Source: Gammaproteobacteria bacterium (lineage in GTDB: Bacteria > Pseudomonadota > Gammaproteobacteria > Pseudomonadales > Pseudohongiellaceae). From it: DNA of 34,541 nucleotides. The notes below the pieces were generated by a model. The model worked only from the letters and a program-made list of their open reading frames with translations. It made no database searches and was not told where the DNA came from. The translations under genes and the position numbers were made by a program. Below are positions 3,309-34,541 of the stretch, piece by piece. The DNA is taken from the NCBI GenBank assembly GCA_947458495.1, contig CANHAR010000003.1, positions 1 through 34,541 on the forward strand. Reading direction: 5' to 3'. Position 1 is the first letter of the stretch. Each line of letters begins with the position of its first letter.

Positions 3309-3764
3309 TTGGACATCAGACTGGATAACCTGGAAAGCCCCCAAGTGATTGCGTTGATTCGAGAGCATATTGCATCCATGGAGCCAACGGCTCCTCCGGA
3401 AAGCCGACACGCCCTGGATCTCACGGGATTACGACATTCAGACATATCCTTTTGGGCGATTTGGGACGGTGATGTTCTTGCGGGTATTGGAGCCCTGAAG
3501 CGGTTGTCACCAGACCATGCAGAAATCAAGTCCATGAAGACTGCAGCGCCCTACCTGCGCAAAGGCGTGGCGTCACACATGCTGAACCATATCATCGGTG
3601 AGGCTCAGCGATGTGGCTATAATCAACTGAGTCTCGAAACGGGTTCAATGGCATTCTTTGAGCCTGCGAGGAAGCTATATGCATTATTCGGGTTTGTGGA
3701 ATGTGGTCCGTTTGGGAGCTATGTTGAAGATCCCAACAGTGTATTTATGACAAAGTCGTTATAA
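3309..3764 (+). CDS. GNAT family N-acetyltransferase
   Basis: Probable TTG start at 3309 after CGAGG; MKTAAPYLRKGVASHMLNHIIGEAQRCGYNQLSLETGSM...FYxLFGF-type GNAT signature. Confidence 0.85.
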   Translation: MDIRLDNLESPQVIALIREHIASMEPTAPPESRHALDLTGLRHSDISFWAIWDGDVLAGIGALKRLSPDHAEIKSMKTAAPYLRKGVASHMLNHIIGEAQRCGYNQLSLETGSMAFFEPARKLYALFGFVECGPFGSYVEDPNSVFMTKSL

Positions 3765-18280: not shown

Positions 18281-18580
18281 GTGATTAGAACGTCGGTACA
18301 CAGGGTGATTGTGTTTAGCATGGCTTTGCTGTGCCTGGTGTCGTTTGCCAACGCCGAATATTTTGGACCACAAAGCACTGAGGAAGTCACACACTATTCC
18401 ACCACTGACGACTACATCTGTTCCAGAGCGACATCAGATGACAGGACGGATATCCCTTCACAAGAGATATTCACACCTGCTCATCAGGGTTGCTCTTCCC
18501 CTCCGCTTCACCCGGTACACCCGGTTTTATCGCAACGCTCCACCTCTTGGAAAATACGCGGTCCGCCCTCGCAGTTCTGA
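18281..18580 (+). CDS. Possible small exported protein
   Basis: GTG-start ORF with signal-peptide-like VFSMALLCLVSFANA; remainder has no recognisable domain. Confidence 0.3.
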   Translation: MIRTSVHRVIVFSMALLCLVSFANAEYFGPQSTEEVTHYSTTDDYICSRATSDDRTDIPSQEIFTPAHQGCSSPPLHPVHPVLSQRSTSWKIRGPPSQF

Positions 18581-27569: not shown

Positions 27570-28109
27570 TCAGCGCTGGCTGATCTGCCCGAGCAGATTA
27601 TTGATCTCGCGACTCAGATCCCCATCATTGCCGGCAAAGCTCAGTGCACGGCGCGCAAAACCTTCGGCTTCACCATAACGCTGTTGCTGATAACGGATAC
27701 TGGCCAGCCGATACCACAGATAACCATCACGCGGGCTGATGCGCAGAGCGCGCTCACTCACGGCGGCGGCTCGCTCCAGGTCGCCATCGGCAATTGCCTG
27801 ATCTACCGATGCCAGCAAGGTCGATGCCGGTGTTCCCGCGGGTGCAGCACGCTCCCGTGGGGTTTCCGGTACCGGCTCGGGCGGTGGTGGTGCTGTCTCG
27901 GGCTGGGCTGGAATATCTACCCGTTGTGGCGGTACCTGAACCGGAAAGGATCTTGCGGCTTCCTGAACCGGCGCAACCGGTTCGGCCGCGTCACGCACGG
28001 AGGCGGGCTCACTGGTGGATACCGGAGCCCCGGGGCGTGATGCCCCGCTATAGCTGGCGCAGGCACTGAGCAGGCTCAGTAACAGTAAAACACTGATTCG
28101 GGTCATCAT
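27570..28109 (-). CDS. TPR-containing lipoprotein, candidate PBP1B activator (LpoP-like)
   Basis: Lipobox LLSLLSAC; proline-rich linker; AIADGDLERAAAVSERALRISPRDGYLWYRLASIRYQQQRYGEAEGFARRALSFAG; ATGA overlap with PBP1B. Confidence 0.75.
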   Translation of the reverse strand: MMTRISVLLLLSLLSACASYSGASRPGAPVSTSEPASVRDAAEPVAPVQEAARSFPVQVPPQRVDIPAQPETAPPPPEPVPETPRERAAPAGTPASTLLASVDQAIADGDLERAAAVSERALRISPRDGYLWYRLASIRYQQQRYGEAEGFARRALSFAGNDGDLSREINNLLGQISQR

Positions 28110-30457
28110 GGGTTTAGGTTCCTGACGCGGTCGATCAAGGTGTCGAGCAAGGTGTCGGTATTGTCACAGCGGGTAGCCGGGTCAGGCAACTGTCCAGCTC
28201 TGAAGGGCAGCATCACGGCAGTACTGCAGTCAAGTCCGTTCCCGCTGCGCACGGGTTGCTCGGCAACACGCTGGAATACGATGTCGGAGGGGGCAAACGA
28301 CTGTCGTGGTTGTATGTCGAGTCTGCCCATAATGTCTGTCCATACCCGCAGCGCACCAGAGGATCCGGTTAAGCCGGTTTCGCGGTTGTCATCATGCCCA
28401 AGCCAGACCACGCCAACCAGATCGCTGCCATAACCTGCAAACCAGCTGTCGCGCAGATCGTTAGTGGTGCCGGTTTTTCCGGCAAGGGGCAGGTTGTTGT
28501 CGAGCCGGTTAATCATGTTGCGTGCGGTACCACGTTCAAAAACGCCTTGCATGGCCCATTCCAGCAGAAACATGTCGGCCGGATCAGCGACCTGCTGAGT
28601 TTCGATGCCATAACGGGCAAGGCGTTCACCGGTGCCGGTTGTCACTGCTTCCACGGCGCGCAGCGGTGACCGGAAGCCGTTGCTGGCCAGCGTTTGGTAC
28701 ATCTGCGCAACATTCAATGGGCTCATGTTCACGGAGCCCAGCAAGACCGAGGGGAAGGGAGGGGGATTACTCTCAAGGCCCAGTTCCCGCAAAGTCTCCA
28801 CCACATCGGCAACGCCGACCTTCATGCCCATATCAACGGTGGCCAGATTTAATGAGCGTTGCAGTGAGTCGTACAGATACACATCGCCATACATCTGGTT
28901 ATCGTAGTTACGCGGTGACCACGAGTCGCCGTTGTCCAGTGCGATTGTTACCGGCGCGTCGCTGAGTATGCTGGCCAGAGTAAAATCGCCGGACTCCAGA
29001 GCGGTCAGCACCACTGCCGGTTTGACCAGCGATCCTATCGGCCTTACCGCCCGCAGTGCACGATTAAAGCCTGTATAGCCGGGTCGTCTGCTGCCGGCTA
29101 CCGCGCGGATATCGCCGGTACTGGCGTCGGTGATAACCATCGCAGCCTCAAGCGGATCGCCTGCTGGACGGTCTGGTCCGTCAGGCACCTCAACAGCGGC
29201 GACGGCATCACCAAGCGCTGCTTCCATGGTGTTCTGAACGCGAAGGTCCAGCGTGGTGAAGATACGCAATCCTTCAGTCTGCAGGGCGTCGGCATCGTAA
29301 TCGCGCGACAGGTCATTACGCACCAGGTCCATAAACGCCGGATAACCACTGCCGCGTTGCGTCGGCCGCGCCGATACACTGAGCTCTTGCGCCTGCGCCT
29401 GCTCCATTTGTTGCTGGGTGATAAATCCCTGGTTCATCATTTGCGCCAGCACCACATTACGCCGGTCGGTTGCCCGTTCAGGATTGCGGCGCGGATGGTA
29501 AAACGACGCACCACGCGGCAATCCGGCCAGTAACGCCAATTCATCCAGCTCGAGCTCGTCCAGTGGGCGCCCGAAGTAATGTTCTGCCGCCAGCGCAAAA
29601 CCATGGATGGCGCGATTGCCGTCCTGGCCGAGGAAAATTTCGTTCATGTAAGCGCCAAGGATTTCGTCTTTGCTGAAATGCAGTTCGAGGGCCAGCGCCA
29701 TCAGCGCCTCTTCGATTTTCCGGCGAAGTGTCTGTTCTTCAGTCAGATACAGATTTTTGATCAATTGCTGTGTCAGCGTGCTGCCACCCTGCACAATGCT
29801 GCCGGCGCGAATATTGGTGACAAAGGCGCGGGCAATACCAATCGGATCGACGCCAACATGGCTGTAAAAGCGCTGATCTTCGACGGCGATCACGGCGTTG
29901 ACCAGATGTTCAGGAACGTCGCTGAGTGCCAGAGGCAGCCTGTCCTCGCCGGTATCAGGATTTATCTGCGCAATTTCTACGGGCTCCAGCCGCGCGAGTG
30001 CCAGCTCCCCGGTTGCTTCGTTGCCGCGTAATGAGTTTACCCGTCGCCCCAGAAAGTCGACATCCACATAGACGCTGGGCTCGTCTCCATCCCAGAAACT
30101 GAAGCCGCGAGTCCACAACCTCACCCGTGAGCTGCTGGCGTTATACTCCCCTGGCTCGTTGACCTGATTGGCTTCGCGGTAACCCAGCCTTTGCAAGGTG
30201 TCGGTCAAATCTGCTGCCGACAGGTGTGCGCCGGCATAGAGCTCAACCGGGCGCGCATACAGCCTTGCCGGCAGAGCCCATTGCAATGCGCTGAAGTCAC
30301 GGCGGATTTTGTAGTCAATCCAAACGCACCAGATGGCAATGGCGGCCACTAACAGCAAAACCATCCGACGCACAAGCCAGCCCGTTTTGCCGGACGCCCC
30401 GGAGCGCCGCGGCTTCGCGGGTGTTGCTGGTTTCTTGGAAGATCGTGAAGTAGCCAT
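28106..30457 (-). CDS. mrcB: Penicillin-binding protein 1B (bifunctional glycosyltransferase/transpeptidase)
   Basis: AVEDQRFYSHVGVDPIGIARAFVTNIRAGSIVQGGSTLTQQLIKNLYL; GSLVKP (SxxK), SLN, GKTGTTND (KTG). Confidence 0.95.
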   Translation of the reverse strand: MATSRSSKKPATPAKPRRSGASGKTGWLVRRMVLLLVAAIAIWCVWIDYKIRRDFSALQWALPARLYARPVELYAGAHLSAADLTDTLQRLGYREANQVNEPGEYNASSSRVRLWTRGFSFWDGDEPSVYVDVDFLGRRVNSLRGNEATGELALARLEPVEIAQINPDTGEDRLPLALSDVPEHLVNAVIAVEDQRFYSHVGVDPIGIARAFVTNIRAGSIVQGGSTLTQQLIKNLYLTEEQTLRRKIEEALMALALELHFSKDEILGAYMNEIFLGQDGNRAIHGFALAAEHYFGRPLDELELDELALLAGLPRGASFYHPRRNPERATDRRNVVLAQMMNQGFITQQQMEQAQAQELSVSARPTQRGSGYPAFMDLVRNDLSRDYDADALQTEGLRIFTTLDLRVQNTMEAALGDAVAAVEVPDGPDRPAGDPLEAAMVITDASTGDIRAVAGSRRPGYTGFNRALRAVRPIGSLVKPAVVLTALESGDFTLASILSDAPVTIALDNGDSWSPRNYDNQMYGDVYLYDSLQRSLNLATVDMGMKVGVADVVETLRELGLESNPPPFPSVLLGSVNMSPLNVAQMYQTLASNGFRSPLRAVEAVTTGTGERLARYGIETQQVADPADMFLLEWAMQGVFERGTARNMINRLDNNLPLAGKTGTTNDLRDSWFAGYGSDLVGVVWLGHDDNRETGLTGSSGALRVWTDIMGRLDIQPRQSFAPSDIVFQRVAEQPVRSGNGLDCSTAVMLPFRAGQLPDPATRCDNTDTLLDTLIDRVRNLNP

Positions 30458-30495
30458 GGGCGGCTAGTATAGCGGTTAGTCGTGGGGTTAGTCGT

Positions 30496-30532
30496 GGGGA
30501 CGGAGAGATCATTTTTTGATCCCTCCGTCCCC
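30496..30532. repeat. 37-bp palindrome, copy 1 (one stem mismatch)
   Basis: GGGGACGGAGAGATCATTTTTTGATCCCTCCGTCCCC. Confidence 0.9.
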
Positions 30533-30568
30533 ATTCAGTATGATCGTGGCTTAGTCGCGGTTTAGTTG

Positions 30569-30605
30569 GGGGACGGAGAGATCATTTTTTGATCTCTCCG
30601 TCCCC
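30569..30605. repeat. 37-bp palindrome, copy 2 (perfect stem)
   Basis: GGGGACGGAGAGATCATTTTTTGATCTCTCCGTCCCC: 16-bp stem, 5-nt loop. Confidence 0.95.
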
Positions 30606-30639: not shown

Positions 30640-32181
30640 ATGAGAATGTTCAAACTGGTGTGTATAGGTGTTTGTGCGCTGCTGATATCGGGTGTTGCAT
30701 CTGCACAGTATCTGCAAACTACAACGCGGTTTTCGAGCCAGCCTGCCCAAGGGGCAGACAGTTTGGTGGTGCTGGTGCCGGCAGGGGTATCAGTTCAGTT
30801 GAGTGACTGGTCGCAAGTAACGACGGATCAGGTGGCGCGCGCCATCAGCGCCGCAGAGTTTACCGGAGAAACTGGTCAACAGATGTTGCTGCTGGCGCCT
30901 GCCGGACTGTCAGTCGACAGATTGATCCTGCTCGGCCTTGGTGAGCCTGCCGAACTGCCACGTCATCGCGCGGAAACGATAGGCGCATCATTGTCGGTGA
31001 TGATCAACGACACACATGCGGCAACCGTGGCAATCAGTACTGGCCTGATCGCGGATGCTGACCAGGCGGCACGAATCGCGGCAGAGGTGGCGCATGGTGT
31101 TGACCTGCGAAATTATCGATTTGATCGTTACAAAAGCGAGCCCGATCCGCGACCTGCGCAGAGCTTTTATTGGCAGGTTGCTGCAGAGTCCGCGGCCCTG
31201 GAGTCCTACGCCCTGTTATCGGCATTGGCCGAAGGCGTGTTTACAGCGCGCGAGTTGACCAACCTGCCGGGTGGTGATGGTTTTCCGGCGGCATTTGCCG
31301 AGTATGCTCGTCAGCAACTTGCCCCACTGGGTGTGGAAGTCACCATCCTGACACCGGAACAGGTTCTTGAGCAGGGCATGGGCTCTCTTTACGGGGTCAG
31401 TCAGGGCAGTCAGCACAAAGCCCATCTGTTGGTAGCACATTGGAAAGGCAGCGACGATCAGGCGATTGCGCTGGTTGGTAAGGGCAATACCTTTGATACA
31501 GGTGGCTACAATCTCAAAACCGATTCTGCATCCATTTTGCAAATGCAGACTGATAAGGCTGGCGGTGCTGCAGTTGTTGGTGCGATAAAGGCACTGGCGG
31601 GTCAGCGGGTTGCCGTGAATGTGGTCGGTGTGGTGCCCTTGTCGCAAAATGCTATTTCCGGTGAGGCAATCTTGCCGGGCGACGTCTTGACGGCGGCTGA
31701 TGGCACAACCATCGAGGTAGCCAGCACTGACGCCGAAGGCCGGCTGATTCTGGCAGATGGAATCTGGTATGCACGTCATCACTACAATCCGCGCGCAATT
31801 GCCGATATAGCAACCCTGACGGGTGCAAAAACCACTGCTCTGGGTACTGCGTATTCCGCTATTTTCACCAACCAACCGGAAATCCGTGACTCGCTGAGTC
31901 TGGCGGGTGAGATAACACAAGAATTGGTCTGGCCATTGCCGCTGGATAACTACAGCGGAATTATAAACAGCCGCATTGCCGATATACGCAACTCGGGTAC
32001 GCCCGGTGCGCAGGCTGGCGCGATTTTTCTGCAACACTTTGCCGGCGATACACCCTGGGTACACATTGATATGGCTGGTGAAGCCTTGGCAGACAGTGCC
32101 AGTGGCATAAGCGCGGCCGGAGCGACTGGTCATGGCGTGCGTCTGCTGGCTGAATGGGTAAAACTTTTTTCTGATCAGTAA
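30640..32181 (+). CDS. M17 leucyl aminopeptidase family protein with N-terminal signal peptide
   Basis: MRMFKLVCIGVCALLISGVASAQ; VGKGNTFDTGGYNLK; MQTDKAGGAAVVGAIKAL; STDAEGRLILADGIWYA. Confidence 0.93.
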   Translation: MRMFKLVCIGVCALLISGVASAQYLQTTTRFSSQPAQGADSLVVLVPAGVSVQLSDWSQVTTDQVARAISAAEFTGETGQQMLLLAPAGLSVDRLILLGLGEPAELPRHRAETIGASLSVMINDTHAATVAISTGLIADADQAARIAAEVAHGVDLRNYRFDRYKSEPDPRPAQSFYWQVAAESAALESYALLSALAEGVFTARELTNLPGGDGFPAAFAEYARQQLAPLGVEVTILTPEQVLEQGMGSLYGVSQGSQHKAHLLVAHWKGSDDQAIALVGKGNTFDTGGYNLKTDSASILQMQTDKAGGAAVVGAIKALAGQRVAVNVVGVVPLSQNAISGEAILPGDVLTAADGTTIEVASTDAEGRLILADGIWYARHHYNPRAIADIATLTGAKTTALGTAYSAIFTNQPEIRDSLSLAGEITQELVWPLPLDNYSGIINSRIADIRNSGTPGAQAGAIFLQHFAGDTPWVHIDMAGEALADSASGISAAGATGHGVRLLAEWVKLFSDQ

Positions 32182-33730: not shown

Positions 33731-34273
33731 TTAAAAACCAAAAACCGGTTGTGGATTCAGGGTCACGCTGTTGGTGTTATCACTCAGCGTGACCTGTCCG
33801 TCCTGAATAATGACCTGTAGTTGCATGGTGCGCTGGGCGAGTAGTGCCAGCGCCTGCGTGTCTTCGGTTGCCAGGTTGACAATGATCAGATTCTTTTGGC
33901 GCTCAAACTGAGTCAGGTTCTGTGCCAGCCAGATATCGGCGGTCCGACCGCCATAACTGTAAATGCGTACTTCGCTGGAGCGCCCGCAGGCTTTGCGGAT
34001 CAGTCGCTCATCAGGCGTGCCGACATCAATCCACAGATCAATCACCCCGGTCAGATCCTTTTTCCAGATGTCAGCTTCTTCATCGTTGGTGATGCCCTGG
34101 CCGAACTCCAGAAACTCCTGGGCATTCAGAGCGTATGCCAGCAAACGCACCATCATGCGCTCGTCAGTTTCTGACGGATGCCGTGCCAGCGTGATGTTGT
34201 GGTCTTCGTAGTAATGCCGGTCCATATCTGCGATCTGCAGGGAGGCTTTGAATACAGTTGCTTTAGTCGCCAT
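33731..34273 (-). CDS. yaeQ: YaeQ family protein
   Basis: MATKATVFKASLQIADMDRHYYEDHNITLARHPSETDERMMVRLLAYALNAQEFLEFGQGI; start at 34273 (the longer ORF runs into the palindrome). Confidence 0.94.
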   Translation of the reverse strand: MATKATVFKASLQIADMDRHYYEDHNITLARHPSETDERMMVRLLAYALNAQEFLEFGQGITNDEEADIWKKDLTGVIDLWIDVGTPDERLIRKACGRSSEVRIYSYGGRTADIWLAQNLTQFERQKNLIIVNLATEDTQALALLAQRTMQLQVIIQDGQVTLSDNTNSVTLNPQPVFGF

Positions 34274-34346: not shown

Positions 34347-34399
34347 GGTGGGATGGGGACGGAGAGATCAAAAAATGATCTCTCCGTCCCCATCCCACC
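34347..34399. repeat. 37-bp palindrome, copy 3, with stem extended to 24 bp (53 bp total)
   Basis: GGTGGGATGGGGACGGAGAGATCA-AAAAA-TGATCTCTCCGTCCCCATCCCACC; core 34355-34391 is the exact reverse complement of copy 2. Confidence 0.95.
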
Positions 34400-34454: not shown

Positions 34455-34541
34455 ATGGCAGTCGAGATAACTCCGGTCATTCGTTCGGCGCAGAATGGCG
34501 ATCGCAAAGCGTTTTATGTGCTCTATCAGCAGCACGTGGCG
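34455..34541 (+). CDS. N-terminus of an ECF-type sigma factor, truncated by window end
   Basis: MAVEITPVIRSAQNGDRKAFYVLYQQHVA resembles sigma-70 region 2 starts of ECF factors. Confidence 0.6.
   Translation, partial: MAVEITPVIRSAQNGDRKAFYVLYQQHVA

Follow-up and report, generated by a model that had tools for sequence, protein, structure and literature searches.

Palindromes in the divergent mrcB spacer of a Pseudohongiellaceae genome belong to a dispersed repeat with a RAYT-like transposase as its likely mobiliser

Whether two copies of a 37-bp palindrome between mrcB and an M17 leucyl aminopeptidase gene serve these neighbours, or belong to a repeat that moves about the genome, is the question raised by the 34,541-nucleotide stretch of DNA considered here (the window), which is contig C3 of a 2.74-Mb assembly (278 contigs, 85% complete). 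Copy 1 (30496..30532; GGGGACGGAGAGATCATTTTTTGATCCCTCCGTCCCC) has mixed arms, AGAGATC and GATCCCT, and copy 2 (30569..30605), whose variable base is T and not C, has perfect 16-bp arms around a 5-nt loop; their positions and their spacing of 73 bp, both put forward in a sequence-only reading of this DNA, were borne out, and chance is very far from accounting for them. The spacer is divergent as that reading described, since it is flanked by mrcB on the minus strand (28106..30457, start 30457), encoding a PBP1b with UB2H, transglycosylase and transpeptidase domains, and by the aminopeptidase gene on the plus strand (30640..32181, ATG at 30640); copy 2 ends 34 bp before this ATG, compared with the estimate of about 35 bp. 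A third copy, which had been missed (34355..34391), lies in another divergent spacer, between yaeQ (33731..34273, minus strand; start 34273 inferred from alignment of relatives) and a plus-strand ORF starting near 34455, and its pairing runs on into the flanks (GGTGGGAT ... ATCCCACC). None of the three palindromes is assigned a strand. Arm matches with at most three mismatches number nine in the window against 0.46 expected, and none of 100 shuffles gave as many. Folded as single-strand hairpins, copy 1 reaches -15.0 kcal/mol (z -7.4) and copy 2 -19.2 kcal/mol (z -9.5). The left flank of copy 1 (30474..30495, plus strand) contains a short tandem duplication, GGTTAGTCGTGG GGTTAGTCGT(GGGGACGG), that the sister genome G010 retains with one change, and a search of the mrcB/M17 spacer for intrinsic terminators found none.

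An assembly-wide search identified 61 exact half-sites GGGGACGGAGRGATCA, grouping into approximately 30 places, and no match to a reversed-pattern control in the same assembly. The window copies are thus not the only ones in the genome, confined to orthologous loci, which is what the sequence-only reading would have taken as the mark of operators; copies are also kept at orthologous loci, though with species-specific sequence. Contig C49 (15.7 kb, 0.57% of the assembly) holds 29 of the 61 half-sites, with a RAYT gene inside the cluster. By rough ORF-based calls from a simple script, 17 of 32 places lie between co-directional genes, 4-6 between divergent (four as first scored) and three between convergent ones, with seven inside ORFs and one at an edge. 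Two of the entries inside ORFs are a single place on the overlapping contigs C14 and C49, and copy 3 was scored as inside solely on account of a yaeQ ORF that reaches upstream of the start yaeQ probably uses, a divergent setting fitting better. On these counts promoter siting in the window is no general rule, and the suggested preference for promoters was rejected.

A search of the genome for Y1_Tnp (PF01797) returned two matches, the better of which is a RAYT-like Y1 transposase gene beside ligA on C49, outside the window (L033:2673-3359, minus strand). It is single-copy and has a cognate repeat, a trait expected of GTAG REP systems. The 228-aa product carries the catalytic motif HIH at residues 64-66, followed by YRYIELNPVRANMV; its similarity to E. 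coli TnpA-REP (4er8) is weak (E 0.045), its score of 70.7 bits against the NCBIfam REP-associated transposase model lies below the 80-bit cut-off, and a Pfam scan of six RAYT orthologues found no HTH domain. The gene has a palindrome on either side, at L033:2657-2693 and at 3392-3428, and the downstream copy overlaps its 3' end. A second Y1 gene, coding for about 323 aa (L245:1008-1979, with orthologues), is found throughout the genus and has no GGGG-type palindromes within 1-1.5 kb, and is therefore an unlikely mobiliser. Between ligA and an OmpW-like gene, a pair of short ORFs that overlap (L033:1016-1607) resembles, by eye, a gene for an HTH antitoxin together with one for a ParE/RelE-like partner.

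Orthologues of the RAYT with at least 54% identity are present in 8 of 14 congeneric genomes (G001, G002, G003, G005, G006, G008, G010 and G014), and DNA comparison places them in synteny, adjoining ligA and/or a lytic-transglycosylase-like gene. Local palindromes surround the gene in G001, G003, G006, G008, G010 and G014, with an own version in each neighbourhood examined: GGGGTCGGAGAGATCA in G001, GGGGACGGAGGAGCAAGCTCC in G014, GGGGACGGAGGNNATACTT types in G003 and G006, and GGGGACGGAGGCGGTCTACGTCCCC in G008. Half-site clusters around the RAYT are also found in G002 (19 of 106 within 5.6 kb) and G005, and 5 of 15 genomes have many copies of GGGGACGGAGRGATCA itself. G001, whose RAYT is 76% identical, uses GGGGTCGGAGR, 151 of its 158 half-sites being T-type. 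Together with the T-type counts of the genome under study, G000 (8 of 103), of G010 (9 of 96) and of G014 (11 of 212), this supports a palindrome version that would be homogeneous within a genome, G004 being mixed (60 of 114). The sample consists of draft genomes, whose contigs break at repeats, and G004, an assembly of about 700 contigs, carries copies but lacks a close RAYT match. Palindromes of the GGGGACGGAGGGATTTA kind lie around ligA in G007 and G013 (L240, L241), where no ligA-linked RAYT was found; clusters can therefore outlast, or occur without, the gene, and these are possibly relics after its loss. The ugd region of G001, about 46 kb away from the RAYT, is heavily occupied, so that regional preference or inheritance accounts for part of the clustering. 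In addition to the main palindrome, the same genome has a second repeat form at L083:16620-16675 and 18495-18557, where nested arrays built from a 15-bp unit, GGGGTCGGAGGCATT, face each other.

Copies appear to have been rewritten in place, because both window sites hold each relative's own version. The mrcB spacer is occupied in five genomes, with a single palindrome in G001 (GGGGTCGGAGGGATCA), in G002 and G005 (GGGGACGGAGGGATCA) and in G010 (window type). The aminopeptidase gene itself is present beside mrcB in G000 and G001 and absent between mrcB and fumC in G010, G002 and G005, where the palindrome remains. In the alignment of the yaeQ spacer, G000, G010, G001, G002 and G005 share the site of the palindrome, each with its own version; the position is base-identical in G001, G002 and G005, with the left sequence conserved and the arms different, and the loop is inverted between the sisters G000 and G010. 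Roughly nine C49 sites similarly agree in place and differ in palindrome sequence; G002 and G005 show intermediates there whose arms are mixed. No clean pair of empty and filled sites was found between close relatives, every comparable C49 site being occupied in G010. Shared insertion followed by replacement would be the simplest reading of these shared sites.

The repeats also extend into coding sequence. RapA of G000 and G010 has two in-frame inserts, LGTERSKNDLSVPN (GTERSKNDLSVPN twice); related inserts occur in G002, G005, G001 and G014, and none in the more distant congeners G003, G006, G007, G008, G011 and G013. LigA of G000, read through a 129-bp overlap between contigs C14 and C49, and of G010 has three related inserts, two internal and one forming an element-derived C-terminus, and LigA of G001 has GSEGSKND versions of both internal inserts. 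The inserts are located where relatives have short variable loops, and RapA insert 2 coincides with a gap when aligned to E. coli RapA from the PDB. As in Rickettsia, such repeats alter proteins that are essential or conserved, but a candidate enzyme is present here.

With regard to the immediate surroundings of the copies, 11 of 82 palindromes from five genomes pair at least 6 bp into their flanks, compared with about 1% when flanks of different copies were paired, and nested palindromes and head-to-tail half-units of 15 bp and 31 bp occur. These features suggest either template switching at hairpins or several rounds of insertion into older copies. The recurrence of six arm-adjacent bases on the same side did not clearly exceed its control in every genome, and tandem flank duplication therefore stays a description and not a statistic. 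A test for target-site duplications of the MITE kind found tandem or inverted duplications of variable size in the flanks of copies, none of fixed length.

Given that the copies are many, are enriched around the RAYT and appear as genome-specific versions around its syntenic orthologues, the palindromes are in all likelihood a non-autonomous dispersed repeat, with the RAYT-like HUH/Y1 transposase beside ligA as the probable mobiliser. No transposition was seen, and we infer RAYT-driven mobility, recognition and rewriting from sequence comparison. In single-stranded form, on the lagging strand for instance, the hairpin would be recognised by the enzyme, cut near its G-rich foot and rejoined at new places, often nearby. 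Either the RAYT or replication template switching would then swap old hairpins for the current version, and would also copy short flanking stretches to give the inverted or tandem duplicates; copies would persist where harm is small, as in spacers and variable protein loops.

This explanation works without assigning the mrcB/M17 pair a function in regulation, although a hairpin this close to the 5' side of the aminopeptidase start may influence expression as a side effect. Operators specific to this locus, or hairpins that regulate mrcB and the aminopeptidase, would be in keeping with palindromes that stand in tandem in a divergent spacer, with the occupation of this spacer in five genomes, and with a promoter-like match (30516-30544, TTGATC, 17 nt, TATGAT; 0.1 expected in shuffles) that takes its -35 from the arm of copy 1. 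We consider such a role highly improbable: copy number led to its rejection, the same element standing at some 30 unrelated places, a number of them inside genes, and the palindrome is kept in the three genomes that lack the aminopeptidase gene there, its sequence shifting genome-wide with species and not with locus. Flank palindromy and short tandem duplications are a typical outcome of template switching at hairpins. Their presence beside the copies, as well as the persistence of palindromes in G007 and G013, would fit maintenance by template switching and gene conversion alone, with the RAYT a passenger or otherwise employed. That the enzyme has no part is nevertheless unlikely in view of the density of copies around the RAYT in several genomes, of RAYT genes bounded by copies, of a palindrome version that switches together with RAYT divergence, and of related genes in distant phyla that are flanked by GGGGAC-kind inverted repeats.

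A further alternative bears on in-place replacement only, namely that copies were inserted independently after speciation at the same hot spots. A compact genome offers few insert-tolerant places, and the same spacers and protein loops are used in several species; the base-identical yaeQ-spacer position in three genomes, with conserved left sequence and different arms, and the agreement in place of about nine other sites nevertheless make this doubtful. Returning to the RAYT, we propose tentatively that a vertically inherited enzyme may rewrite palindromes in place, such that a change in its recognition would lead to replacement of the resident copies, even those within LigA and RapA. If this is true, the encoded peptides would change in concert, short repeats would be undergoing concerted evolution driven by an enzyme, and there would be a model for the way palindromes spread in frame, the Rickettsia elements among them. 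With syntenic RAYTs and switched palindromes at shared sites in nine related genomes, in-place replacement is testable. The present system, ordinary in kind, offers an unusually clear natural series on how RAYT-type enzymes maintain repeats, and matters to the question of RAYT function in the host and of RAYT-repeat persistence.

A literature search for the arm sequence gave nothing relevant among the papers listed, and the repeats were compared with three known families. Like the CGTC repeats, which include RPE-4 and RPE-6 of Rickettsia (PMC3733652), they are short palindromes in frame within protein genes. However, membership was rejected because the unpaired end tag is missing, CGTC here being fully paired inside the stem, and the CGTC repeats were reported without an associated transposase gene (PMC3733652), which the present repeats have. 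The sequence-only reading had likened the palindromes to REP/BIME elements mobilised by RAYTs; dispersal over some 30 places and a RAYT in the densest cluster uphold part of this likeness, but not the classical REP/BIME form. A single-copy, syntenic RAYT with a genome-specific cognate repeat is shared with the GTAG-type REPs, BIMEs and REPINs (Nunvar, 2010, PMC2817692; Bertels and Rainey, 2011, PMC3116915), and different REP classes around syntenic RAYTs, termed 'orthogroups', are described by Nunvar et al. (2013; PMC3686654), the passages searched there containing no mention of in-place replacement at shared sites. Unlike these families, the present element is a symmetrical single hairpin and not an inverted pair of REPs, and has tens of copies compared with the more than 100 usual for REPs. 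It also has no GTRG foot: no conserved GTAG/GTGG was found 5' of the hairpin, the left -1 base being T in 18 of 22 G000 copies (-2 base T in 14, G in 4 and A in 4) and mostly A in G002 and G005, and membership among GTAG REPs was rejected on this ground.

Inverted repeats containing GGGGWSAS flank the RAYT-like genes named TIRtrons or TIRYT; some of these TIR repeats are self-complementary and moderately abundant, and REPs have been reported inside genes, DNA ligase included (Di Nocera et al., 2013; PMC3733652). Most TIRYT genes were subsequently placed in TnpA-Y1 subclass 2.1, which also contains RAYT group 1 and near which no REP-like sequences were found (PMC6006769). Here as there, a RAYT-like gene lies between inverted repeats starting with GGGGW, in relatives too, and a dispersed family related to the flanking repeat, moderately abundant and sometimes self-complementary, is present. 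The motif differs, GGGGWCGG having G for A at position 7, so that GGGGACGG and GGGGTCGG agree with GGGGWSAS at 7 of 8 positions; the copies here form perfect hairpins, cluster about the gene and stand in frame within genes that are essential, and Pfam gives no C-terminal HTH. RAYT homologues in several other phyla have flanking inverted repeats GGGGACGG, GGGGACAC, GGGGACAG or TAGGGACAG, and such GGGGAC-kind repeats across phyla support filing the present family with the TIR repeats, with the HTH of subclass 2.1 not found. Of the known systems, the closest fit to the palindromes would be the TIR repeats (GGGGWSAS) that Di Nocera et al. (2013) reported for RAYT-like genes.
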